From contig OY757010.1 of assembly GCA_963580285.1 (NCBI GenBank), positions 213,498,138 to 213,562,137 of the forward strand: a stretch of DNA of 64,000 nt, in the 5' to 3' direction. Below the pieces are notes generated by a model. It was not told the DNA's origin, searched no databases, and saw nothing but the letters and a program-made list of their open reading frames with translations. Positions within the stretch are counted from its first letter, which is position 1. Each line of letters starts with the position of its first letter. The DNA comes from Lucinisca nassula (taxonomy: Eukaryota; Mollusca; Bivalvia; Lucinida; Lucinidae). This document shows positions 3,428-63,232 of this stretch, in pieces. Position numbers and translations under genes: made by a program.

Positions 3428-5735
3428 AATAAAGCGCCATAATTACCCGGGATCGCTCACCTGGACCCAAGATGTTACATAGCTTATGGAAGTGAAGGAA
3501 TCACTGGTTTAAGGAAACGTGGACTGAATATGTTTTTATTTTATTTTTTGTTCTTCTATTTTTAGTTTTGGAGGCTATCTTTTTCATTGGATTGGGATCA
3601 TATTAGCAGAATTAGAGGACATTTCTCAGAAATTATTTTGAAATAGGGCCATTGGCCTAGATGTAGTTTACAGGTTTTGTTGTTTAAGCTCTAGTGGCCA
3701 TTTTGTCTAGCAGAGCGGAACCATTTAGCAATTTTAGTAAAGGGGCGTAAGTAAAACATTCCTGTCAATTTACTTTGAAATCAAGCCTTAAGCCTACGAG
3801 GAGATGATGTTAAAAGGTTTTTCGTATTTTTAGCTGAACGGGACCACTGAAGCAGTTTTGGGGCCATTAGAGGGGCCATTGGGGCCATTAATTTCTGTGA
3901 AATTATTTTGAAATCTGGCCATTTAGGAGAAGTTGTCATTTTAGGTATTTCTATTTTTACCTCTGGTAGCCATTTTGTTACATGAAACGGTATGATTTTA
4001 TCAATTTCAGAAATGGATCATTAGAGGAAATTCCTATGAAATCATGTTGAAATTGGACCATTGGCCTGGAAGGAGATGTCCTTTAAAGCTTTTTTCTTCT
4101 ATATTTTTAGCCCTTGCGACCATTTTGTTCATTTGAATATAACCATTTAGAGGATCACCCAAGAAATATTTCTGTGGAATGATTTTGAAATCTGGCCATT
4201 TGCCTTTGAGCAGATGTCGCTTAAAGGTTTTCCCATGTATAGCTTTGCTATTGGTCAGTTTGTTCAGAATCGGATCAGAAGTGTTACTGGTGACACGTCA
4301 AATGACATTCATTCACCAAGACCTGCGATATGGGAAGTTCGTCCCTAGCTCTCAGCAAAGAAATATACTTAGCTACACTACTCTCTGCACCTTCAGATGA
4401 GGAAATAATCGAATCGGGAGGGCATTCCAATCTCTAATGGTCCGTAGGAACAAACGTTCTTTATAAATGTCAGTTCTTGCAGTAAGGGTCCGAACCGCCA
4501 ACGAGCCATTATTTATACAGCATCTAGCGTGGGGAACAAGGTCATACATTGGAATGCTGGCAGCACCCATTAGACTTTTATATAATAGTATGAGCCTACT
4601 GCCTCTTCTCATTCTCTTGAGATACTCCCAACTTAATATTTTTAGTATTCCAGTCACACTCCCAGTTTCAAAGCAGTAATTGCTTCTTACAAAGCTAGCA
4701 GCTCTATTCTGATTTTTTTTTCAATTTCTTCTTGGAGGACCACTCCACTGGGGTCCCAGATCCAACTACTATATTTCAAGACTTGGCGAACAAGTCCTTT
4801 ATATGCTGCCTCTTTTACATCCTGGAGACACGGATGAAGGTTTTGCCCCAGATAACCAAGCGTTCTGTTTGCCTTAGTACACATATTGCTAATATTCAAT
4901 CTCAAATCGTGTGGGACTGTCACACCAATGTATTTAATTGAATCCACATTCTCTAGCACCATGCCATGGTACGTGTAAGAAGCCCCAATTGTTTGGTTCT
5001 CTTCCTAGTTATCTGCATAATACTGGATTTAACAGTATGAAATCACACGCCTAATGTTCGTGCCCAACATCCTAGTCTATCCTTATAATTCTGTAGTTTC
5101 AGTGCGTCCTCTGTATCTCTAATTCTACCGATATCAAACACAGTCGTCTACGAACAGTCTTATTTCGGAGTCACGGTCAGTGGAAGTACATGTATCCTTA
5201 ATGTAAAGGCAGAATAACAGTGGGTCAAGAACAGTCCCTTGTGGGACCGTAGACAAAACTGTAGCCCATTCCTAATTTTCACCATTAACAACAACTAATT
5301 GTTTTCTGTAGCAAAGAAAGGGATCAGCCCATTTGAATTTTCAGCCGAGCAGAACGACTTTAGCCAATTTTGGAGAGGGCACCCAAGGTCATTTGCTTAG
5401 GAGGATATGTCTTTTATTTTTTTTATCCATTTTCTTAGCTCTTGCGACCGTTTTGTTCAGCAGAGCGGAATGATTTTAGTAATTTAAATGAAGGGTCAAA
5501 AGGGGAACGTTCCTGTGAAATTATTTTGAAATCGAGCAATCGGCCTAGCAGAACTATTTCAACAATGTTTGGTTTTAGTAATTTCAGTAAAGGGTCGTTA
5601 TTCCTGAGAAATAATTTTATAGGCATAGGTGGAGATGCCGTTTTAACGTATTTCTATTTTTAGCTCTGGTGGCAGTTATGTTCAGTGGAGCGGAACTCAT
5701 TGTCAAACGTATTTTGTATCTTAAAAGTTTAGAAC
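3428..5735 (+). repeat. Diverged array of ~160-bp units (array I)
   Basis: Begins with a GGGATCGCTCACCTGG boundary motif like that near 5760. Then degenerate units recur, each with a version of TTTTTAGCTCTAGTGGCCAT, TTGTTCAGCAGAGCGGAA, CTGTGAAATTATTTTGAAAT and GGAGGAGATGTC. Visible in 3560-4265 and 5340-5735; the gap between is filled by a LINE remnant. Bivalve 'pearl'/Helentron-type non-autonomous elements have similar ~160-bp core arrays; that assignment is inference. Confidence 0.55.
4268..5335 (-). pseudogene. LINE reverse-transcriptase remnant (jockey/CR1-like)
   Basis: Reading the minus strand from about 5300 down, fragments in shifting frames match the C-terminal half of a non-LTR retrotransposon RT. 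They run in order: VPQGTVLDPLLFCLYI (RT motif VPQGxxLxPLLF), then FVDDC at the catalytic F/YxDD box, then SIKYIGVTVPHDLRLNIS, KANRTLGYLGQN, AAYKGLVRQVLKYSSWIWDP, and finally TIRDWNALP near 4430. This order is that of jockey/CR1/RTE-like pol C-termini in marine invertebrates. Stops and frameshifts (between 4687 and 4657, and upstream of 4962) make it inactive. The endonuclease and N-terminal RT are absent, so it is 5'-truncated. It interrupts array I, whose units resume on both sides near GTTCAG (about 4267) and CCGAGCAGAACG (about 5345). Confidence 0.85.
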
Positions 5736-6069
5736 AAACAAGAGGGCCAAAATGGCCCTGGATCGCTCACTTGATCCATAGAGTAACAAGTGGGCCCCAG
5801 GGAGTGCCATTATTGACCCAAGGGCTATAATGTGCATAATGTTGAGGGAGGTCTAAAAAGGTGAAGCGTCATAGCTTCATACCAAATATCAACAAAGGCT
5901 ATAATTTGAAAATCTTGGCAAAGGTCCATAAGATGAAGCTACACACCAAATATCAAAGACCTGGGCCTTTCAGTTTCAGAGAAGATTTTTTTCAAGATAT
6001 TCCCTACATAAGCCTATGTAAAACCAAATGTCCCTGGGGCGGGGGAATTTTTGGCCTCAGGGCTATAAT

Positions 6070-8028
6070 TCAAACAATCTTGATAGAGGTCCACTAGATG
6101 CAGCTTCACATCAAATATCAAAGACCTGGGCCATGCTGTTTCAGAGAAGAAGATTTTCAAAGCCTATCTCTATAAGTCTATGTAAAACCAAAAAGCCCTT
6201 AGGCGGGGACATTTGGGGCCCAAGGGCTATAATTTGCACATTCTTGGTAGAGGTCCACTACATGAAGCTCCATACCAAATAGCAAAGACATGGGCCTTGC
6301 AGTTTCAGAGAGAAGATTTTTTTAAAGATATTCCCTATGTAAGTCTATGTAAAACAAAAGGGTCTCGGGACAGGAACATTTTTGACCACAGGACTATAAT
6401 TTGAACAATCTAGATAGAGGTCCACTAGATGAAAGTTCACACCAATCATCAAAGACCTAGACCTTGTGGTTTCACAGAAGAAGATTTTTAAAGATTTCCC
6501 CAATGTAAAACCAAAGGGCCCCGAGGCGGCGGCATTTTTGGTCTCAGGGCCATAATTTGAGCAATCTTGGTAGAGGTCCACTAGATGAAGCTTCATACCA
6601 AATTTCACAGACCTAGGCCTTGTTGTTTCAGAGGAGAAGATTTTTCAAGATTTTCCCTATATAAGTCTATGTAAAACCAAAGGACCCCGGAGCAGGGGCA
6701 TGTTTGGCCACAGGGCTTTAATTTGAACAATCTTGGTAGAGGTCCACAAGATGAAGCTTCATACCTTATATCAAAGACCTGGGCCATGCTGTTTCAGAGA
6801 AGAAGATTTTCAAAGCCTATCTCTATAAGTCTATGTAAAACCAAAAAGCCCTTAGGCGGGGACATTTGTGGCCCAAGGGCTATAATTTGCACATTCTTGG
6901 TAGAGGTCCACTACATGAAGCTCCATACCAAATAGCAAAGACATGGGCCTTGCAGTTTCAGAGAGAAGATTTTTTTAAAGATATTCCCTATGTAAGTCTA
7001 TGTAAAACAAAAGGGTCTCGGGACAGGAACATTTTTGGCCACAGGACTATAATTTGAACAATCTAGATAGAGGTCCACTAGATGAAAGTTCACACCAATC
7101 ATCAAAGACCTAGGCCTTGTGGTTTCACAGAAGAAGATTTTTAAAGATTTTCCCAATGTAAAACCAAAGGGCCCCGAGGCGGCGGCATTTTTGGTCTCAG
7201 GGCCATAATTTGAGCAATCTTGGTAGAGGTCCACTAGATGAAGCTTCATACCAAATTTCACAGACCTAGGCCTTGTTGTTTCAGAGGAGAAGATTTTTCA
7301 AGATTTTCCCTATATAAGTCTATGTAAAACCAAAGGACCCCGGAGCAGGGGCATGTTTGGCCACAGGGCTTTAATTTGAACAATCTTGGTAGAGGTCCAC
7401 AAGATGAAGCTTCATACCTTATATCAAAGACCTGGGCCATGCTGTTTCAGAGAAGAAGATTTTCAAAGCCTATCTCTATAAGTCTATGTAAAACCAAAAA
7501 GCCCTTAGGCGGGGACATTTGTGGCCCAAGGGCTATAATTTGCACATTCTTGGTAGAGGTCCACTACATGAAGCTCCATACCAAATAGCAAAGACATGGG
7601 CCTTGCAGTTTCAGAGAGAAGATTTTTTTAAAGATATTCCCTATGTAAGTCTATGTAAAACAAAAGGGTCTCGGGACAGGAACATTTTTGGCCACAGGAC
7701 TATAATTTGAACAATCTAGATAGAGGTCCACTAGATGAAAGTTCACACCAATCATCAAAGACCTAGGCCTTGTGGTTTCACAGAAGAAGATTTTTAAAGA
7801 TTTTCCCAATGTAAAACCAAAGGGCCCCGAGGCGGCGGCATTTTTGGTCTCAGGGCCATAATTTGAGCAATCTTGGTAGAGGTCCACTAGATGAAGCTTC
7901 ATACCAAATTTCACAGACCTAGGCCTTGTTGTTTCAGAGGAGAAGATTTTTCAAGATTTTCCATATATAAGTTTATGTAAAACCAAAGGGCCCCGGAGCA
8001 GGGGCATGTTTGGCCACAGGGCTTTAAT
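6070..8028 (+). repeat. 653-bp higher-order tandem repeat
   Basis: Within array II, four ~163-bp units form a block that repeats with a period of exactly 653 bp. Identical landmarks occur at 6723 and 7376, and at 6213, 6866 and 7519. The second and third blocks look nearly identical; the first differs at scattered positions (for example TTTTTGACC near 6380 versus TTTTTGGCC near 7033). The sets of short ORFs that recur every 653 bp are consequences of this. Confidence 0.9.
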
Positions 8029-8314
8029 TTGAATAATCTTGGTAGAGGTCCACAAGGTGAAGCTTCATACCTAATATCAAAGACCTGGGCCTTGCGGTTT
8101 CAGAGAAGAAGATTTTTTATAGATTTTCCCCATATAAGTCCATGTAAAACCGAAGGGCCTCGGAGCAGGGGCATGTTTGGCCCAAGGGCTTTAATTTGAA
8201 CAATCTTGGTAGAGGTCCACAAGATGAAGTGTCATACCTAAAATCACAGACCTGGGCCTTGTGGTTTAAGACAGGAAGAGTTTTAAAGATTTTCCCTATA
8301 TAAGCCTATGTAAA

Positions 8315-8474
8315 GACTGAGTGTTTGAGTTTTACGTCCCACCAACAGCTAAGGTCATACGGAGACGAGACCTCGGTTTAAAGACTCATCCGAAAGTCTG
8401 GAGAAGCCCGGGATCGATCCTGCGACCCCTGGTTTACAAGGCGAGTAGCGTTACCACTACACCACGGAGGCTTC
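8315..8474 (-). mobile_element. SINE-A (tRNA-derived)
   Basis: On the minus strand it starts with AAGCCTCCGTGGTGTAGTGG (box A-like) and has box B-like GGATCGATCCC 30-40 bases on, then a tRNA-unrelated body and the 3' end GACGTAAAACTCAAACACTC. It is flanked by a perfect 16-bp target duplication, TATAAGCCTATGTAAA (8299-8314 and 8475-8490), inside array II. Other copies are at 26191, 46500 and 63405. Confidence 0.85.
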
Positions 8475-9195
8475 TATAAGCCTATGTAAAACCAAAGGGA
8501 CCCGGGGCGGGGGCATTTTGGCCCCAGCATTATAATTTGAACAATCTTGGTAGGGGTCCACTAGGTGAAGCTTCATTGCAAATAGCAAAGACCTGGGCCT
8601 TGTGGTTTCAGAGAAGAAGATTTTTAAAGATTTTCCCTATGTAAGCCTAGGTAAAACCAAAGGGCCCATGGGCGGGGGCATTTGTGGCCCAAGCACTATA
8701 ATTTGAACAATCTTGGTAGGTGTCCACTAGATAAAGCTTCATGCCAAATAGCAAAGACCTGGGCCATGCGGTTTCAGAGAAGAAGATTTTTAAAGGTTTT
8801 CCCTATATAAGCCCATGTAAAACCAAAGGGCCCCGGGGCGGGGGCTTTTTTGTCCCAGCACTATAATTTGAACAATCTTGGTAGGGACCCACTAGATGAA
8901 GCTTCATACCAAATATCAAAGACTTGGGCCTTGTGGTTTCAGAAAAGAAGATTTTTAAAGTTTTCGGTGAAAAAAAATCTATTTTTGGCTCCTGTGACCC
9001 AGATATGCAACTGACCGGAACCATTTGAACAACTTTGAAAGGGGACCACCTAAGGATCATTGCTGTGAAGTTTGGTCAAAATCTGATCAGTGGTTTAGGA
9101 GGAGATGTAGTTTGAAGAAATTGTTTACGCACACACGCACGCACACACGCACGCACTGACGACGGACCACGGACGAAAAGTGATCACAAAAGCTC

Positions 9196-11357: not shown

Positions 11358-11641
11358 AATATGTTCTATAAAAGGGTTATTCTTTGGAAGCAAGGAATAC
11401 ACAACAGAACTGAAAAAAATATGGAGTGTACATGTTTTCTCGGCCAGACTAGCTAGTTTCGGCCAATTAGGCCTCATCAGTGACCCTCAGATATTTTAAA
11501 AATTCACAATGGAATCAATGATCCCAAAGGACAAGAACATATAATCTACATTATGATGTAGGACAGGGAGACGTTTTACCGCCGCCACACATTCCCACAC
11601 ACCAGCTGTAGTGAAGTTAAATATGTTCTATAAAAGGCTCG
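11358..11641 (-). mobile_element. Hammerhead (retrozyme-like) unit, ~1.1 monomers
   Basis: The landmark AAATATGTTCTATAAAAGG occurs at both ends (ATGTTC at 11361 and 11623), a spacing of 262 bp. The interior is the reverse complement of the 20.6-kb and 60.6-kb units, including the GGCGGTAAAACGTCTCC and GTGTAGATTATATTTTC regions. It contains one hammerhead motif on the minus strand. There is no ORF; the function implied by similar animal retrozymes is a self-cleaved, circularised RNA copied by a LINE machinery (inference). Confidence 0.75.
11438..11491 (-). ncRNA. Type I hammerhead ribozyme, core intact
   Basis: On the minus strand: helix I strand TCTGAGGGTCA, core CTGATGA, stem II GGCC-TAATT-GGCC, core GAA plus A15.1, stem III ACT-AGCT-AGT, cleavage triplet GTC, then helix I partner TGGCCGAGA. 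All catalytic-core positions match the hammerhead consensus. One helix I pair is lost compared with 60742-60795 (G:G instead of G:C). Predicted cleavage lies between 11447 and 11446. Confidence 0.8.
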
Positions 11642-16365: not shown

Positions 16366-16808
16366 TCAGGGCTGTAAGAGTAATTGGTTGATGGCATTCC
16401 AAAACACGAGAAAAACAAAAACCGCCATTATTGTCAGAAACAAAACCATTGAAGACAGAGACGACACAGTAAACTGAGACGGTACTGTGAACTGAGACGG
16501 CACTGTGAACTGAGACAGTACTGTGAACTGAGATGGTACTTTGAGTTGAGACGGCACTGTGAACTGAGACGGTACTGTGAACTGAGACGGCACTGTGAAC
16601 TGAGACGGTAATGTGAAATGAGACGGTACTGTGAAATGAGACGGCACTGTGAACTGAGACGGTACTATAAACTGAGACGGTACTGTGAACTGAGATGGTA
16701 CTGTGAACTGAGACGGTAACTGAGACGGTACTGCGAACTGAGACGGCACTGTGAACTGAGACAGTACTGTGAACTGAGACGGTACTGTGAACTGAGACGG
16801 TACTGTGA
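16366..16808 (-). other. Repeat-encoded ORF with hydrophobic tail
   Basis: On the minus strand an open frame without an ATG runs through the minisatellite as VPSQFT repeats (about 20), leaves the repeat at SSLSSM and ends in a 20-residue hydrophobic stretch (VLFLTIMAVFVFLVFW) before the stop at 16366. It resembles a repeat stalk plus membrane anchor, but the frame is open chiefly because the unit lacks stops. I do not call it a gene. Confidence 0.2.
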
Positions 16809-16945
16809 ACTACAAATGTACTGTGAACTGAGATGGTACAGTGAACTGGGACGGTACTGTGAACTGAGACGGTACTGTAAATCTAGACGGCACTGTAAAC
16901 TGAGGCTGTGCTGTAAACTGAGACGGCACTGTAAACTGAGACGGC
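16455..16945 (+). repeat. 18-bp minisatellite, ~27 copies
   Basis: Unit GGTACTGTGAACTGAGAC with variants GGCACTG and AGTACTG, repeated head to tail; one 12-bp unit near 16715. Because 18 is a multiple of three, the minus strand reads as a VPSQFT hexapeptide repeat and the plus strand as a RYCELR-like repeat. Confidence 0.95.
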
Positions 16946-17931: not shown

Positions 17932-18162
17932 GTATTTCGAAACACACCTATTCAAATACATTGTCATTTTTTGGCCAAAGAAAAAGAAATTTAAAAAAAA
18001 AAATGGAATATGTGCCTTTTTTGCTCAAAACATAGATTGAGGGGAGTCGACAGAAACGCCTCGACGAAGCGATTCTATCGAGTACCCACAATCCAGTGTC
18101 TCAGAGCATGAATACGGAAATTAATGTATACCCCTGCAAACCCGAGCTTTACTATACAAAAG
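17932..18162 (-). mobile_element. Family A MITE, left part of an interrupted copy
   Basis: Starts TTTCGAAACACACCTATTCA and runs through the core (GAAACGCCTCGACGAAGCG) to CTTTACTATACAAAAGTG. The missing right end, TTAAAGGGGATCACAATTC to GATTTCGTAATG, lies at 20862-20897, 2.7 kb away, beyond nested insertions. Confidence 0.75.
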
Positions 18163-18351
18163 TGTAGATTATATTTTCTTGTCCTTTGGGATCATTGATT
18201 CCATTGTGGAATTTTGACAATATCTGAGGCCTATGATGAGGCCTAATTGGCCGAAACTAGCTAGTCTGGCCCAGAAAACATGTACACTCCATATTTTTCA
18301 GTTCTGTGGTGTATTCCTTGCTTCCAAAAGATAACCCTTTTATAGAACATA
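18163..18351 (+). mobile_element. Hammerhead unit, 5'-partial
   Basis: Begins mid-unit at TGTAGATTATATTTTCTTGT and runs to TATAGAACATA, where a transposon interrupts it. It joins in register with the unit that resumes at 20595. Confidence 0.75.
18223..18276 (+). ncRNA. Hammerhead ribozyme, core mutated
   Basis: Stem II, GAAAC, stem III and the GTC triplet are intact, and the 3' helix I strand TGGCCCAGA is present. The first core base is A instead of C (ATGATGAG at 18233) and the 5' helix I strand is altered (TCTGAGGCCT). Substitution of C3 abolishes hammerhead catalysis in known ribozymes, so this copy is probably inactive. Confidence 0.7.
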
Positions 18352-20594
18352 CTGTAAATGACCAATTAATTCGAACAGTAAAAAAATAAATACTGATCCG
18401 GGTGTTGGAACTATTAGAAAATATCAGATTGGAAATAACTGTTTGATCTGAAAGAATTCCATACATTGGATCAGGCTGTGTTCAATATTTTATACAACTA
18501 CGTTTTTTTTTTTTCCCGTGGCCCTGTCAATCCGCAAGTGATTAGAAGTTATAAATATCAATTATGCAGTGCAGAAAAGTTTGATCTATAAATAAGTCAG
18601 TGTGTGCAGGGGGGTCTTTGAATGCGATACACATTGTCATTAATGACATTTACACCTATTGAACTATCACTATTCCCTTTAAAATGGGCGAGTCAATTTG
18701 TGATCTCAAAAATAACAGAAATTGATTTGTTTGGAGCAATTTTTTTTTCTTAAGAGTAGCCCATATCTAGGAAAAAGAGGATTTTTCAAAGAATTCCTTT
18801 TAGTCTGTAATATTTTTTTTGTTCCGGCTACACCGCAGCAGACAAAGTCCAGCTACATGTATATATGGGATGGGATGTTGAAACCCGCACGTGCAGCTAC
18901 CCAGTGGAGCTAGGCGCATAGATACTTCACACCCCCCACCCCCACCTATATTGTTTAAGCGCATAGTGAAGCCTCAGGCGAGACTGCGCAGCCTTGTTTG
19001 TGTGTTCTCTGTTTACTAATAAGCAGTCTCAAACCAGCGTGAGCCGGGGGCATGTAGCAATTCAATGCCCATCGAAGTAGTCCGGTGAAGACTGATTAGA
19101 CTGTGCGGATGCAAAACCATCATGTTATTTAGATAGGCAAGTAACAAGAAAAAGAAAATGCGGACATCATACACAAATTTGATCTTCACTTTATGCGCGA
19201 TGAAACATTTCAAACCTCTTGAACATTGAAGACACAATCCCGATTGCACAACTGTGCAGACTTATCAGTCTTTTCTGTACGCACATGCGCAATAAGTATT
19301 TTACTCGAGATAGGAGATCTGAACAGACTGATCCTTGCACTTGGTAGCTTAGGATGTGTTTGTAACGTCGCAAGCAGATTGGGCCGGTCAAATGTACACG
19401 CCGTCGTTTTAAGCCGGCGCACGGCGAAAAAAAAAAGGTTTCAAACGAAAGACCAGATTAGCCTGCGCATCTAGCCAATGTGGCCATAGTTTTCGCCTGT
19501 TGTTCTTTGATTAGCACAGAGGCCATGGTAGGCACATACGAACAACGAAGACTATTCAGACTATTCAGACTGCATGAATGTGCAGGCTGACCTGAGTCTT
19601 CCCCCACACCGAATATGATTTATTTTCTTAATCAAGTTCCCCGAAATTACTTCCAATAAAACCTTGTCACCGTGAAATAAATGGGCATCTTCACTTGCTC
19701 CTCAGAAAACCAGGGTAGCCGCTTCTGCTATCAAAGAGGCATTGAATCAATGCCACGGCACATGGAAAAAGGGTAACACTGTCACACAAATAATAATGAA
19801 AGCTGAAGCTACGCTCCAAAGAGTCTGAGAGCAAAGCGAAAACACTTACAAATGCATGGTGATCCAAGCCTTTGTAGGCCACAATGCTACATCACCGACT
19901 AGGATCAGCCTGAACATCGATGCAATGTGATCAGTCTTTATTGAACCCTTAAATCTTACGAAGTCACAAGGCTAAGTGAAACCCCTTGCCTTGCATACCG
20001 GTAGTCGGTGCGCATGTTCAGTGTTTGCAGGTCGTTGAGAAACCAGCGAAGACACATCTTAGCGTACTCATTCATGCAATCCGATTAGAGTCTTCGCTGA
20101 TCGCATGAGCCTGATGCAGACGATGGGATTTTCACAACATAAATAAGCGAAACTCCTGTGGCTCATCAAGGTTGATCTAAGCACTTGCAGCCTGCGTTTC
20201 TCGCAGTCTGATCAGTATTCGGTGAGGGTATGAACCTTCCACTACCACAGGGCTATCCAAAGTGAGAGAAGCGAAAACCATTTGCCTTACAGAGTGCATG
20301 TTAATCCGAGTCTTTGGAAGTCGCACACATTTCATGCTAAGTTTTCTTCTTTTTTTCGTGCGCTATCTCATATACGACCAGTACGATGTTGTAATGATAA
20401 ACCCGGGAACGGTCCGAAATGCTTGTTCTGGATGCATTTTTCGGCATTTTTTTTTGTGTGTTCGAAGTATTAAAAATTCTGATTTCTGAAAAATTTGGGA
20501 GTTCGAATTAAATGAGAAAGTTTTCAGCCATAAATTCGGAATAATTTTGGGTGTTCGAACTGCTAGGGTGTTCCAATTAATTGGTCACCTACCG
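18352..20594. mobile_element. 2.24-kb TA-flanked DNA transposon-like element
   Basis: Left end CTGTAAATGACCAATTAATT and right end (inverted) CGGTAGGTGACCAATTAATT are TIRs; TA is present on both sides (18350-18351 and 20595-20596). Removing it restores a continuous hammerhead unit (TAGAACATA to TTTAACTTC), so the ends are well supported. The right end has subterminal repeats of GTTCGAA (near 20460, 20502 and 20552). No transposase ORF is recognisable. The interior (18950-19620) holds decayed copies of the GCGCAGTCTCG/AGACTGCGC fold-back family also seen at 33977 and 37035. Confidence 0.7.
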
Positions 20595-20861
20595 TATTTA
20601 ACTTCACCACAACTGGTGTGTGGGAATGTGTGGCGGCGGTAAAACGTCTCCCTGCCCTACATCATAGTGTAGATTATATTTTCTTGTCCTTTGGGATCAT
20701 TGATTCCTTTGTGGAATTTGGAAAATATCTTAGGGTTACTGATGAGGCCTAAATGGCCGAAACTAGCTAGTCTGGCTCAGAAAACATGTGCACACCATAT
20801 TTTTCAGTTCTGTGGTGTATTCTTTGCTTCCAAAGGATAACCCTTTTATAGAACATATTAA
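20595..20861 (+). mobile_element. Hammerhead unit, complete monomer
   Basis: Continues the 18163 unit after the transposon: TTTAACTTCACCACAACTGG, GGCGGCGGTAAAACGTCTCC, GTGTAGATTATATTTTC, the hammerhead, TTGCTTCCAAAGGATAACCC and the end TAGAACATATT. The complementary 9-mers TCCTTTGGG-like and CCAAAGGAT would pair in the RNA, adding to a rod-like fold. Confidence 0.75.
20728..20781 (+). ncRNA. Type I hammerhead ribozyme, core intact
   Basis: Core CTGATGAG (20739-20746), stem II GGCC-TAAAT-GGCC, GAAAC, stem III ACT-AGCT-AGT and triplet GTC ending at 20772. Helix I strands TCTTAGGGTTA and TGGCTCAGA pair less well than in the 60.7-kb copy (one mismatch, extra G:U pairs), so activity may be reduced. 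Confidence 0.78.
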
Positions 20862-30746: not shown

Positions 30747-30798
30747 TAAGAACATTGTAAAATAAAAGTAAATGCAATGATCAGGAATCGATACAATT

Positions 30799-31033
30799 GG
30801 GCCCCGTCAAGCAATTTTGGTACTTATCGCCTATGCGAGCAGCGAAGGTTCAGGCGAGCCTGCGCATCCGCGCAGTCTCGCCAGAACATTCGCTGCTCGC
30901 TCATACAAGCAGTGAATCAAGAGGAACCTTCAGACAGAAAGCCATATCCCTGGCCCCTCTGAATGGCTGGGCATGCGCAGTTAAAATTTGTCATGATGGA
31001 ATGCTCGAAGACACAAATTCGCTTGGCGGGGCT
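30799..31033 (+). mobile_element. 5-bp-TSD MITE with GC-rich palindrome
   Basis: GGGCCCCGTCAAGC to CGCTTGGCGGGGCT, with target duplication CAATT (30794-30798 and 31034-31038). Host family Y reads ATACAATTAACCC without the insert, which confirms the boundaries. Confidence 0.92.
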
Positions 31034-31097
31034 CAATTAACCCACAGCTCCCATCAGAGACACCAAATGGAAAGGAATACGAACATGAAAAGCTAGA

Positions 31098-31376
31098 CAT
31101 TACGCAAACACGCCTATACAAATACATTGCCAATTTTATCGCCGAAAAATGAAAATTTTAAGAGGAAAAATTGTGATATTTTTCTTATTTCTGCTCAAAA
31201 TATAGATTGTGGGCACTCGTTAGAACCGCCTCATCGAGCCGGTTCTAACGAGTACCCACAATCTATATTTTAGAGCAGAAATATGAAAAATAAGGTATAC
31301 CCCCGGGAACCCCCGTTTTACAATATAAAAGTGGGGTTCCAGGGGGTCAAAATGATATAGGCGTGTTTTCGTGATG
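31098..31376 (-). mobile_element. Family A MITE, complete, nested in family Y
   Basis: CATTACGCAAACACGCC to GGCGTGTTTTCGTGATG. Host family Y reads CTAGACCCTAATGG elsewhere; here CTAGA and ACCCC flank the element, so at most one base is duplicated. Confidence 0.88.
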
Positions 31377-38612: not shown

Positions 38613-39140
38613 CATTATGAAAACACAGCCGTGTGGCATAGTACATGCACGTTCTTTTATATCTCCAAAACGGTATTTTTTGCAGATGAAATTTTGTGAT
38701 TTTTTTATTATTATTTATACCCGAAATATAGGTTGTGGGTGTTCGTTAGAACCGCCTTAGTAAGGCAATTCTAACGAGTACCCACAGCCTCTGTGTTAGA
38801 GCAGAAATGAGAGAAAATAATGTATAATCCCGTAAACCATAATTTTCTCTATATAAAGCGGGGTATATGGCGTGATCATTTGGGCCCCGTCAAGCGATTT
38901 TGGTACTTATCGCCTATGCGAATAGCGAAGGTTCAGGCGAGCCTGCGCATCCGCACAGTCTCGCCAGAACCTTCGCTGCTCGCTCATACAAGCAGTGAAT
39001 CAAGAGGAACCTTCAGACAGAAAGCAATATCCCTGGCCCCTCTGAATGGCTGGGCATGCGCAGTTAAAGTTTGTCATGACGGAATGCTCGAAGACACAAA
39101 TTCGCTTGGCGGGGCTCATTTCACAGTCTTGTTCACGTAG
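38613..39140 (-). mobile_element. Family B MITE carrying a 5-bp-TSD MITE
   Basis: CATTATGAAAACACAGCC to CAGTCTTGTTCACGT, with core GGTGTTCGTTAGAACCGCC. The inserted MITE lies in the terminal arm at CATTT. Confidence 0.8.
38882..39116 (+). mobile_element. 5-bp-TSD MITE with GC-rich palindrome
   Basis: GGGCCCCGTCAAGC to CGCTTGGCGGGGCT; target duplication CATTT (38877-38881 and 39117-39121). The same insertion is present in unit 2, so it predates the duplication. Confidence 0.9.
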
Positions 39141-40871: not shown

Positions 40872-41234
40872 CATTATGAAAAAACACCTATACAAATACA
40901 TTGTAAACTTTACCGCAGACAAAACGAAAATTTTAAGATGAAAAAATGTGAGTTGTCTTATATCTGCTCAAAATATAGATATAGAGTGTGGGCACTCGTT
41001 AGAACCACTTCATCGAGGTGGTTCTAACGCGTACTCACAATCTATATTTTAGAGCAGAATATAGAGTGTGTGTACTCGTTAGAACCACCTCATCGAGGTG
41101 GTTCTAACGCGTACTGACAATCTATATTTTAGAGCAGAAATAAGAAAATAAGGTTTACCCCAGTAAACCCCAGTTTTACTATATAAAAGTAAGGTTCAAG
41201 GGGGTCAAAATTATATAGGCGTGTTTTCATGATG
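40872..41234 (-). mobile_element. Family A MITE with duplicated core
   Basis: CATTATGAAAAAACACC to GGCGTGTTTTCATGATG. Two full hairpin cores follow each other (GAACCACTTCATCGAGGTGG and GAACCACCTCATCGAGGTGG, spacing about 82 bp). The paralogue at 45369 has a single core, so the core duplicated (or was lost) after the segmental duplication. Confidence 0.85.
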
Positions 41235-43594: not shown

Positions 43595-43999
43595 CATTAC
43601 GATAACACAACCGTGCGATATAGGGCATATTTCTCATCTCCAAAATGGCTATGTATTAGAGCAGAAGTGAGAAAAAATAATGTATAATCCCGTAAACCAT
43701 AATTTTCTCTATATAAAGCGGGGTATATGGCGTGATCATTTGGGTCCCGTCAAGCGATTTTGGTACTTATCGCCTATGCGAGCAGCGAAGGTTCAGGCGA
43801 GCCTGCGCATCCGCGCAGTCTCGCCAGAACCTTCGCTGCTCGCTCATACAAGCAGTGAATCAAGAGGAACCTTCAGACAGAAAGCCATATCCCTGGCCCC
43901 TCTGAATGGCTGGGCATGCGCAGTTAAAATTTGTCATGACGGAATGCTCGAAGACACAAATTCGCTTGGCGGGGCTCATTTCACAGTGTTGTTCACGTT
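43595..43999 (-). mobile_element. Family B MITE, core deleted, carrying a 5-bp-TSD MITE
   Basis: CATTACGATAACACAACC to TCCAAAATGGCTA, then directly TGTATTAGAGCAG: the left shoulder and half the core are missing. This is the junction between duplication units 1 and 2. Confidence 0.8.
43742..43976 (+). mobile_element. 5-bp-TSD MITE with GC-rich palindrome
   Basis: GGGTCCCGTCAAGC to CGCTTGGCGGGGCT, target duplication CATTT (43737-43741 and 43977-43981). Paralogue of the 38882 copy. Confidence 0.9.
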
Positions 44000-44324
44000 G
44001 TTACTGGCAAAAGAATGCGTACTGTACTAGTTAACCGCTGAGTCGGTTAGCCTGCCCAGGAAAAGTCTAATCATGATAAATGACCCGCTTAACATGACCT
44101 ACATAGTATATACTTGGCCGTAAAACTCTAATTTGTCAGCAGCTAGTCAAACAATCTGCCAATAATTGAATCAATCAATCAATCACTCAAACAAACTGAA
44201 TCCACTTGTGAAAACGTTGTCTTCAGGTGTTACATGTACGAGCCAAGCATTGCGGAGATGAAATGAAAAGCAAACCCAGCAACAACTTGAGCCTTGAAAT
44301 ATTTAACCAACAAAATAGAAGTGA

Positions 44325-58969: not shown

Positions 58970-59296
58970 CAAAGCATTGTTAACTTAGTAGTCAAATTGT
59001 TAACTCTTCTAGCGTGTACAATACCCAATACTTTGGTATTGTTGTTGAATCAATGTGAGTTACGATGTGTTACTGAAACAAGAACTCCGCTGAAGGCTTT
59101 GTCGCGCATGTGGGTTGCAAAGCCATCAAACGATAAAATCTGGCCAAGGTCAAACATGGACACTTTCATAAAAGTTGCCATTCCCTGATGCAAGCTTGCA
59201 ACTAGTATCATTATGAAGCTCCTTGTTCTTGATGAATGAAATTAAACATTACCGTGAAAGCTTCGGTTGACACATTAGTTCTCTAAGTCAGTAAAC

Positions 59297-59578
59297 CATT
59301 ATGATAACACACCCGTGCGACATAGTGCATTTTTTTCACATCACCAAAATGGCGATTTTTCTGATGAAAATCCGTGATATTTTTATTATAAATACTGCAA
59401 ACATAGGTTGTGTGTACTCGTTAGAACCGCCTCATTGAGGCGGTTCTAACGAGTACCCACAACCTATGTCTAGAATCAAAAATAAGAAAAGTAATGTTTA
59501 CCTCCCGTTAACCCCATTTTTCTCTATATAAAGTGGGGTTTAAGGGGGTGTTCATTTCACGGACTTGTTCACGTGATG
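59297..59578 (-). mobile_element. Family B MITE, complete, nested in array IV
   Basis: CATTATGATAACACACCCG to ACTTGTTCACGTGATG. The host unit reads GTGAACCATGAAATG elsewhere; here AAAC precedes and ACCATAAAAT follows, so two bases (AC) may be duplicated. Confidence 0.92.
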
Positions 59579-59734
59579 ACCATAAAATATAGGTCAAGGT
59601 CAAACATGGATGCTTGCCTTATAGTTGGAATTCCTATATGCAGGTTTGTACCATTTATCATTAACGAATCTCTTGTAGTTTTTGAGAAATAAACTTGACC
59701 ATTTCGGTGAGCCCGCTAGGGTGGTCGCAAATGT

Positions 59735-60090
59735 TAACAAAATAGAAGTGAAGGCAATGATCAGGAATCGATACAATTAACCCACAGCTCCCATCAGAGA
59801 CATCAAAGGGAAAGAAACATAAGCATGCAATAACTAGACCCCAATGGAAATACCAATAGCGGAAAGCCAAAAGGACAGTTACTTTCCCACAAAATGGCCA
59901 ATTAGCTATCCAAAACAAAGCAAAGAAATATAAGCGTTACACCCACGCAAAGACAACACATAACAAAAATACACCGCGACCGAAGAACCGCCTTGGAGCG
60001 GACAGTGAAACGAATTCCATGTGGGTGGGGTTTAAATCGATTCTATGCGTGGCCGCAATCCTCGCACTTTCATCCGTCGCGATTTAGACG
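59735..60090 (-). mobile_element. Family Y, truncated copy nested in array IV
   Basis: AATAGAAGTGAAGGCAATGA to CATCCGTCGCGATTTAGACG; about 355 bp, sharing its left end with the long copies but stopping about 175 bp short on the other side. Confidence 0.8.
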
Positions 60091-60490
60091 AAGTCAGTGA
60101 ACCATGGAATGTAGGTCAAGTTCAAATGTGAATGCTTGCATTAAAGTTGCCATCCAAAGATGAAAGTTTGTACCCAGTATCATGGATGAGCCTCTTATAA
60201 TTCTTCAGTAATGGCCTCATACATTAGGCAGAACGCTAAAGTAAACGCAAATGTTTACACAGTCAGTGAACCATGAAATGTAGATCAAGGTCAAATATGG
60301 ATGCTTGCACTGAAGCTGCCATCCCAAGATGAAAGTTTGTACCCAGTATCAAGAATAGCCCCTTATTGTTCTTCATCTAGGGTGAACGCAAATGTTTACA
60401 GAGTCAATGAACCATCAAATGTAGGTAAAGGTCAAATATGGATGCTTCATTAAAGTTGTCATCCCAAGATGCAAGTTTGTGCAAAGTATC

Positions 60491-60534
60491 ATTGACGAGG
60501 CCTAATTGGCCGAAACTAGCTAGTCTGGCCCAGA
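60491..60534 (+). ncRNA. Truncated hammerhead ribozyme
   Basis: TTGACGAGG replaces CTGATGAGG, and the 5' helix I strand is host sequence; stem II, GAAAC, stem III and GTC remain. Not expected to self-cleave. Confidence 0.7.
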
Positions 60535-60741
60535 AAACATGTACACTCCATATTTTTCACTTCTGTGGTGTATTCCTTGCTTCCAAAGGATAACCATTTT
60601 ATAGAACATATTTAGCTTCACTACAGCTGGTGTGTGGGAATGTGTGGCGGCGGTAAAACTTCTCCCTGCCCTACATCATAGTGTAGATTATATTTTCTTG
60701 TCCTTTGGGATCATTGATTCCATTGTGGAATTTTGAAAATA

Positions 60742-60795
60742 TCTGAGGGTCACTGATGAGGCCTAATTGGCCGAAACTAGCTAGTCTGGCCCAGA
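60742..60795 (+). ncRNA. Type I hammerhead ribozyme, complete
   Basis: Helix I: TCTGAGGGTCA pairs with TGGCCCAGA over 9 base pairs with a 2-base AG bulge. Core CTGATGA at 60753-60759. Stem II GGCC(TAATT)GGCC has the usual G10.1:C11.1 closing pair. Core GAA is followed by A15.1. Stem III is a 3-bp ACT/AGT with an AGCT loop. Triplet GTC ends at 60786, where cleavage is predicted. The closed short stem III and open helix I make it type I. This is the best preserved copy in the window. Confidence 0.88.
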
Positions 60796-60985
60796 AAACA
60801 TGTACACTCCATATTTTTCACTTCTGTGGTGTATTCCTTGCTTCCAAAGGATAACCCGTTTATAGAACATATCTAATAGATCTTGAGGACGGTCTGTTAC
60901 ATCGAGGGGAACGCTATGGTGAACATAATTGTTGGCGGCTGGACGATGGAACGGTCGAGCGGACGGAAAACCGGACTCTTATATC

Positions 60986-62640: not shown

Positions 62641-63232
62641 TTCTTATTTCTGCATAGGTTGTGGGGACTCGTTCAAACCCATGACAAAGACACGCCTATA
62701 TAATTCTGACCCCCTTGAACCCCACTGATATAAACTGGGGTTTACAGGGGTAAACCTTATTTTTCTTATTTCTGCTCTAAAATATAGATTGTGGGTACTC
62801 GTTAGAACCGCCTCACGAAAACACGCCTATATGATTTTGACCCCCTTGAACCCCACCTTTATATAGTAAAACTGGGGCTTTCGGGGGTACACCTTATTTT
62901 TCTTATTTCTGCCCTAAAATATAGATTGTGGGTACTCGTTAGAACTGTCTAAATGAGACGGTTCTAATGAGTACCACAATCTATATTTTGAGCAGAAATA
63001 AGAAAAATATCACAATTTTTCATAATAAAATTGTCGTTTTTTCGAAGGTAAAGTTTACAATGTATTTGTATAGGCGTGTTCTCGTAATGACCTCAATTAG
63101 GCGGTTCTTACTAGCACCCGAAACCTATGACTGGAGTACAAATAATACGAACATGTTAAAACGTCATTTAAAAACGTTTTGGAGACACGAAATAATGCAC
63201 TATGTCACACAGAATAAGTTATCGCAATGGCA
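62641..63232 (+). mobile_element. Nested/chimeric stack of family A and B MITEs
   Basis: Left: family B shoulder (TTATTTCTGCATAGGTTGTG) to 62679. Then the left half of a family A copy (62680-62812) that stops in its core at GTTAGAACCGCCT. Then a complete family A copy (62811-63089). Then a family B right half beginning CCTCAATTAGGCGGTTC and ending ATCGCAATGG. All breakpoints fall in or beside the shared palindromic core. Confidence 0.8.

Follow-up and report, generated by a model that had tools for sequence, protein, structure and literature searches.

Insertions of a 261-bp hammerhead repeat in the bivalve Lucinisca nassula share one 3′ end and differ at their 5′ ends

Three insertions of a non-coding 261-bp repeat that carries a type I hammerhead motif are present in the 64,000-nucleotide stretch of the Lucinisca nassula genome analysed here (the window). 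All three stop at the same 3′ end, start at different points of the unit and are longer than one unit. We consider it probable that the repeat represents a new family of metazoan retrozymes, whose RNA would cleave itself and, in circular or multimeric form, would be copied by an enzyme of the Penelope type. The mobilizing enzyme of animal retrozymes and its priming on an endless circle are described as open questions in the available sections of PMC7229834 and PMC7761336, and the common end of the insertions, about 86 nt past the site of ribozyme cleavage, may be a pointer to this enzyme.

The hammerhead motif of the 261-base repeat is real. An earlier note on this DNA had placed type I hammerheads at 60742–60795 and 20728–20781 on the plus strand and at 11438–11491 on the minus strand, and we found the elements in place at all three. 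The intact cores consist of CTGATGA, a GGCC/GGCC stem II with a 5-nt loop, GAAA, stem III and TC, with a stem III of two pairs (C-G and T-A) and a self-complementary AGCT loop. A core search matched 60753–60776 (+), 20739–20762 (+) and 11457–11480 (−), which include the CTAGCTAG-TC stretch, and an intact type I core is thus found in three of the five repeat copies. The motif is complete at 60742–60795, with a predicted cut after 60786 and a helix I of 9 bp with a 2-base bulge, just as the note had read it from the letters. By reading, the copy at 20.7 kb retains nine helix I pairs, three of them G-U, and the one at 11.4 kb has lost one pair (G-G). The remaining two copies had been described as broken. 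This is true of the ribozyme at 18.2 kb, in which the helix I strand is altered and the C of CTGATGA is lost. The copy at 60491, on the other hand, is not decayed but truncated at its 5′ end, and its first bases belong to a flanking repeat at the insertion junction. At 18227–18250, the helix I strand of the 18.2-kb copy is replaced by letters that repeat the start of stem II (GAGGCCTA), as though a stretch slightly farther downstream had served as the source.

A full descriptor, which required NUH, both other stems (II and III) and 5 bp or more in helix I, matched these three loci, and 300 dinucleotide-shuffled versions of the complete window gave no match. As the three loci are copies of one motif, they represent one independent event and not three. 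We infer that the hammerhead of the repeat cleaves itself. The contrary explanation, that the resemblance to a hammerhead is accidental or decayed and the repeat is no ribozyme, draws on the Rfam results and on folds of the single motifs that were no better than those of shuffles (z −0.8, −0.6 and −0.2). The note had proposed a covariance search, the outcome of which depended on the model: nothing exceeded the Rfam threshold, and the repeat passed with a model built here. At the gathering score, Rfam reported no family in the window, and among the 68 matches in the whole window up to an E-value of 10 none was a hammerhead. When 141 nt were scanned alone, RAGATH-1 (19.7 bits, cut-off 56.3) and HH9 (17.6 bits, cut-off 52) appeared below threshold, as did two snoRNA families.

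As a control for Rfam, we used viral contigs with the same kind of core pattern, 122 loci that contain 75 full-descriptor hammerheads. Seventeen of these loci were scanned, 12 of which contain 16 full-descriptor hammerheads (one pair is common to L005 and L010), and Rfam reported a hammerhead in none of the 17. Its silence at the repeat is therefore uninformative, and the gathering score was dropped as a judge of the motif because of this insensitivity. The covariance model built here was derived from 14 unrelated viral hammerheads from metagenomes, 6 of the 20 initially chosen having been left out for alignment reasons, and was run over the window with its filters switched off. Ranks 1 to 5 went to the five repeat copies, with scores of 40.5 (60742–60795; E 8.9e-12), 37.4 (20728–20781), 33.9 (11438–11491), 27.2 (the damaged copy at 18.2 kb) and 16.9 bits. 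Their E-values, 9e-12 to 0.003, are rough, and the training motifs are predicted hammerheads; the next match reached 11.8 bits (E 0.21). Since the training set was chosen by its core pattern, the core makes up part of these scores. Set against the empty shuffles, the E-value of 9e-12 from a model of independent hammerheads and the silence of Rfam on the 12 viral loci as well, a fortuitous or decayed resemblance is very improbable.

Twelve viral loci (L005, L010, L014, L016, L033, L044, L061, L066, L080, L106, L114 and L122) each carry two or three hammerheads, spaced about 0.3–3.1 kb apart, and Rfam reported no hammerhead on the four of these contigs that were scanned (L005, L010, L016 and L080). 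Pattern scans of IMG/VR and GTDB gave no relative of the 261-bp repeat family; the core was also present in two IMG/VR contigs, there combined with a long stem III. No match to the repeat was found in phage records. A looser pattern scan returned at least 120 stretches, and among the 80 matches listed, one locus had two, 1.7 kb apart.

Concerning the unit itself, the tandem spacing of 261 bp given in the note was verified by direct repeat. The cut positions in two tandem units delimit a cleavage-to-cleavage unit of 261 nt at 60526–60786 (+), which is the predicted monomer or circle. The GC content of the unit is 0.395–0.41, and no stop-to-stop open reading frame (ORF) of 90 aa, and thus none for the reverse transcriptase and GIY-YIG endonuclease of a Penelope-like element, overlaps any of the three insertions. 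A profile of the copies detected no additional member in the window (next matches at E of at least 0.14), nor does the window contain a long array of the unit. The copies are 92–97% identical to one another, and their differences, the count of which is inflated in the alignment row at 60.49 kb by leading bases that are flank, are nearly all private to single copies, as would be expected for retro-copies of one source.

The reading as an animal retrozyme, which the note had put forward, is supported by the 261-bp unit, the type I hammerhead with a short stem III, the low GC content, the lack of an ORF in the insertions and the dispersed partial tandems. The metazoan non-LTR retrozymes of Cervera and de la Pena (2020; PMC7229834) are described, in the sections available, by the same combination: tandem units of 170–400 bp that are low in GC, lack an ORF and carry a single type I hammerhead with a short stem III, in dispersed partial tandem copies. 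Their criteria include about 170–400 bp, a GC content below 45–50% and no long ORF, all of which are found in the 261-bp unit, as well as no LTRs, primer site or polypurine tract and, when duplications are present, a length above 4 bp. Members of that family also occur in metazoan hosts, in tandem from dimers upward, and their biochemical hallmarks are transcription, self-cleavage and circular RNA. The units of mussel retrozymes are longer in that account (350–390 bp, versus 261 bp here). Amphibian satellite-type retrozymes, compared by description only, likewise have a weak stem III of one or two pairs with a tetraloop; their units measure 330–350 bp and number about 120,000 copies in axolotl. 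The same sections state that weak stems make the amphibian hammerheads act as dimers and that these retrozymes work best as dimers. By analogy, the CTAGCTAG stretches of two tandem units could pair in the repeat studied here. In the available portion of PMC10886601, retrozymes are mentioned as LTR elements only.

The claim that the RNA would form a compact rod was only weakly borne out. Predicted circles gave minimum free energy (MFE) z-scores of −1.8, −1.8 and −2.6 with 59–64% of bases paired, a modest gain over shuffles, and the hammerhead is absent from the MFE structure of the predicted circle. Among the single-motif MFE structures, only that of the 60.7-kb copy contained both helix I and stem II.

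The note had counted five independent copies, two of them with decayed ribozymes. Comparison of the flanks instead gives three insertions, which we designate A, B and CD. Insertion A occupies 60498–60872 (+) and spans 1.42–1.44 units (370–375 nt), as judged from the repeat spacing of 261 and alignment of the joined flanks. Its 5′ end lies inside stem II of the first ribozyme, at a GCCT-type microhomology to the flanking 141-bp repeat, which is continued by the bases that precede the insertion. The joined flanks align across the junction to flanking-repeat copies at 60.09 kb (score 137) and 59.58 kb (score 90), and alignments to two other copies end about 10 bases before the junction. The target of insertion A is a degenerate, partly tandem repeat of about 141 bp that extends over 59129–60491. 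Insertion B, at 11359–11637 (−), measures 277–279 nt or 1.06 units, and 15 nt of tail sequence overlap at its 5′ end. A target-site duplication at B, whose ends share 15–19 nt, was considered and ruled out, because the shared stretch also forms the tail of the other insertions.

Insertion CD lies in two parts. The upstream part (18161–18351, +; 191 nt, 0.73 unit) includes the damaged hammerhead, and the downstream part (20597–20858, +) is one full unit, with a 3′ flank that continues the MITE-like repeat of the 5′ flank at 18.1 kb. Between them, at 18352–20594 (+), is a transposon of 2243 bp with terminal inverted repeats, placed at TA (18350–18351 and 20595–20596). The ends of its inverted repeats are identical at 22 of the 26 outer bases, no stop-to-stop ORF of 90 aa is found inside, and it is probably a non-autonomous TA-inserting DNA transposon. 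The left flank at 18.2 kb and the right flank at 20.7 kb are two halves of one MITE-like repeat; joined with five N, they align to unbroken copies at 35.7, 25.6, 46.2 and 31.1 kb, and to a copy at 58.7 kb with the left half only. Once 18352–20594 is removed, the units meet at the same junction as in the 60-kb dimer. The restored junction and the joined MITE-like flanks indicate that CD was a single insertion, about 453 nt or 1.74 units long, that was split later, and the transposon is younger than the insertion it splits.

Each insertion thus exceeds one unit (1.06 to 1.74) and reads across the cut site. In terms of tandem structure, A and CD contain 1.44 and 1.74 units and B 1.06, and two complete units are present in no insertion. 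Lengths beyond one unit require a circular or multimeric template, and here a linear multimer and a circle are equally possible. Both units of insertion A carry one variant that is absent from the other loci (alignment column 213), a pattern in keeping with one template having been traversed twice. Between the parts of CD there is no clear joint private variant; the only one is at column 141, in the damaged helix I strand.

All three insertions share the 3′ end GAACATAT, with an ambiguity of 0–2 nt and in different flanks. In A this end is at 60865–60872 (+), and we propose it as the start of reverse transcription. It is located 86, 88 and 86 nt downstream of the predicted cut, the value of 88 being due to two extra Ts in one copy. 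Chance alone would place two further ends no more than 2 nt from the first with a probability that we roughly estimate, for the three insertions of this one window, at (5/261)^2, or about 4e-4. The 5′ ends, in contrast, differ: one is in stem II, one in the tail and one at AGTG in the middle of the unit. Such a combination, one fixed 3′ end and variable 5′ ends, is characteristic of target-primed reverse transcription. At the 5′ junctions of A and of CD, target and repeat match over short stretches. Comparison with empty sites, which were found for A and CD but not for B, revealed no target-site duplication: the target of A has neither duplication nor loss, and that of CD, which reads GGTTAAAGG, has lost about 3 nt. 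According to the available sections of PMC7229834, animal retrozymes sometimes have target duplications, and those of PMC8490949 mention a presumptive one in a single case of a related Schistosoma hammerhead repeat. A fixed 3′ end is not among the features reported in the former, where priming and mobilizer are left open.

The same 3′ end in three different flanks would be unexpected if an old satellite had been dispersed as DNA, through extrachromosomal circles or recombination, with the hammerhead as a passenger. End joining of circular DNA could also account for the partial tandems and the 5′ microhomology. In view of the repeated end and of a window without a long array of the unit, we regard dispersal as DNA as improbable.

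The pattern of ends is equally the signature of LINEs and SINEs. In that case, a linear multimeric transcript ending at GAACATAT would be recognized at its 3′ end in the manner of a SINE and reverse-transcribed at the target by the machinery of a LINE; LINEs are named as possible mobilizers in the sections of PMC7229834 consulted. However, none of the three 3′ ends is followed by a poly(A) or simple-repeat tail, and the two testable loci have no duplication. Moreover, good matches to the 32-nt tail are confined, within the window, to the repeat's own copies (the next best has 11 mismatches), and so no LINE in the window shares it. The distance from cut to end and the sequence of the end also match a start of the Penelope type, as described below. 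Mobilization by a LINE therefore appears to us unlikely, though a more serious contender than dispersal as DNA.

In the sections available of PMC11167929 (Frangieh 2024), the purified protein of a Penelope-like element of Anolis (Poseidon, PAc) is reported to initiate reverse transcription inside the RNA, most commonly at ORF positions +111–118, an 8-nt range, with a second start site as well. The enzyme prefers AT-rich targets, with ATT favoured. The hammerhead cut is given as 26 bp past the start codon, and is after +29 in the printed template. From this template we computed that the PAc start is 82–89 nt downstream of the hammerhead cut, compared with 86, 88 and 86 nt in the repeat. We had recorded the shared end before consulting the paper, and the distances were computed afterwards. 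As the start is published as a range and a second site exists, an accidental match in spacing has a chance of perhaps 4–10% by our own estimate.

The two RNAs were also compared in sequence, ungapped and each counted from its cut, with one reference element and three loci. The likeness had been noticed by eye before testing. Across all offsets, the two agree best at the shared end, in 16 of 20 bases (offset 4), a score of 12. This score was reached by 3/2000 shuffles within offset 10, by 1/2000 that also covered base 86 and by 3/500 at any offset. Random segments of the window attained it in 9/3000 cases (2/3000 covering base 86) and in 7/4000 (2/4000), and at any offset in 12/600, so that the match is weaker when all offsets are considered. 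The score of 12 is that of the majority sequence, whose letters are the same in locus B; loci A and CD score 10, a value reached by 81/4000 random segments, 9/4000 of them covering base 86. We regard the likeness as suggestive.

PAc and the repeat have in common a hammerhead and partial tandem copies; genomic copies of PAc end at its start sites, as those of the repeat would do at the proposed one. They differ in that PAc encodes its own enzyme, whereas the repeat is non-coding, and in that only stems I and II are described for the PAc hammerhead, whereas that of the repeat is a complete type I motif. The word "retrozyme" is absent from the sections of PMC11167929 available, and among the open-licence papers matched and listed, no title or abstract start joined retrozymes with the findings on internal starts of Penelope elements. 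A Penelope-type mobilizer as such has been proposed in print: the accessible part of PMC7229834 considers target priming of the circles possible and regards Penelope-like elements as a strong candidate, and that of PMC11722881 proposes that retrozymes are reduced Penelope-like elements, while that of PMC7761336 states that the repeats show no motif indicating their mobilizer. The idea is therefore not new, and the shared end and its spacing are added evidence. No Penelope element was found in the window itself, which has no other CTGANGA..GAAA with stem II and gave no Pfam match for the 8 ORFs tested.

Taking these results into account, we can outline how the putative retrozyme may spread. Tandem copies of a non-coding 261-nt unit that contains a single type I hammerhead would be transcribed, and these transcripts would cleave themselves and be ligated into circles, as in the published family. 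A Penelope-like reverse transcriptase, primed at a nick in the chromosome, would then copy this RNA in circular or multimeric form from an internal start that lies about 86 nt downstream of the cut. The enzyme may run through more than one round of template and halt at variable points, after which microhomology would serve to close the 5′ junction; neither of the two testable sites has a target-site duplication. More tentatively, animal retrozymes in general may possess a Penelope-type start module, made up of the hammerhead and an initiation site 80–90 nt downstream, and may be stripped derivatives of Penelope elements, a generalization to which we give somewhat less than even weight. If true, retrozymes and Penelope-like elements would have a start module in common, in place and partly in sequence, and the circles of retrozymes would be copied from an internal site, repeatedly round, into a nicked chromosome.

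Other features of the window were also noted, and its repeats and ORF fragments have an animal, perhaps bivalve, character. Two ORF pieces at 4373–5004 (−), without a Pfam match, resemble what we take to be the end of a non-LTR reverse transcriptase. A MITE-like palindromic family with strong hairpins is abundant throughout (for example 120–324, 31179–31290, 40979–41139 and 62654–62945) and yields many sub-threshold matches to miRNA families in Rfam. A long tandem array with a period of about 166/331/489 bp occupies 5893–8965, and an 18-bp minisatellite of 26.6 copies, with several frames open, is located at 16472–16944. Finally, 30761–31096, 38811–39140 and 43671–44030 are three copies of a dispersed repeat, the translation of which has 6071 relatives in the protein collection.
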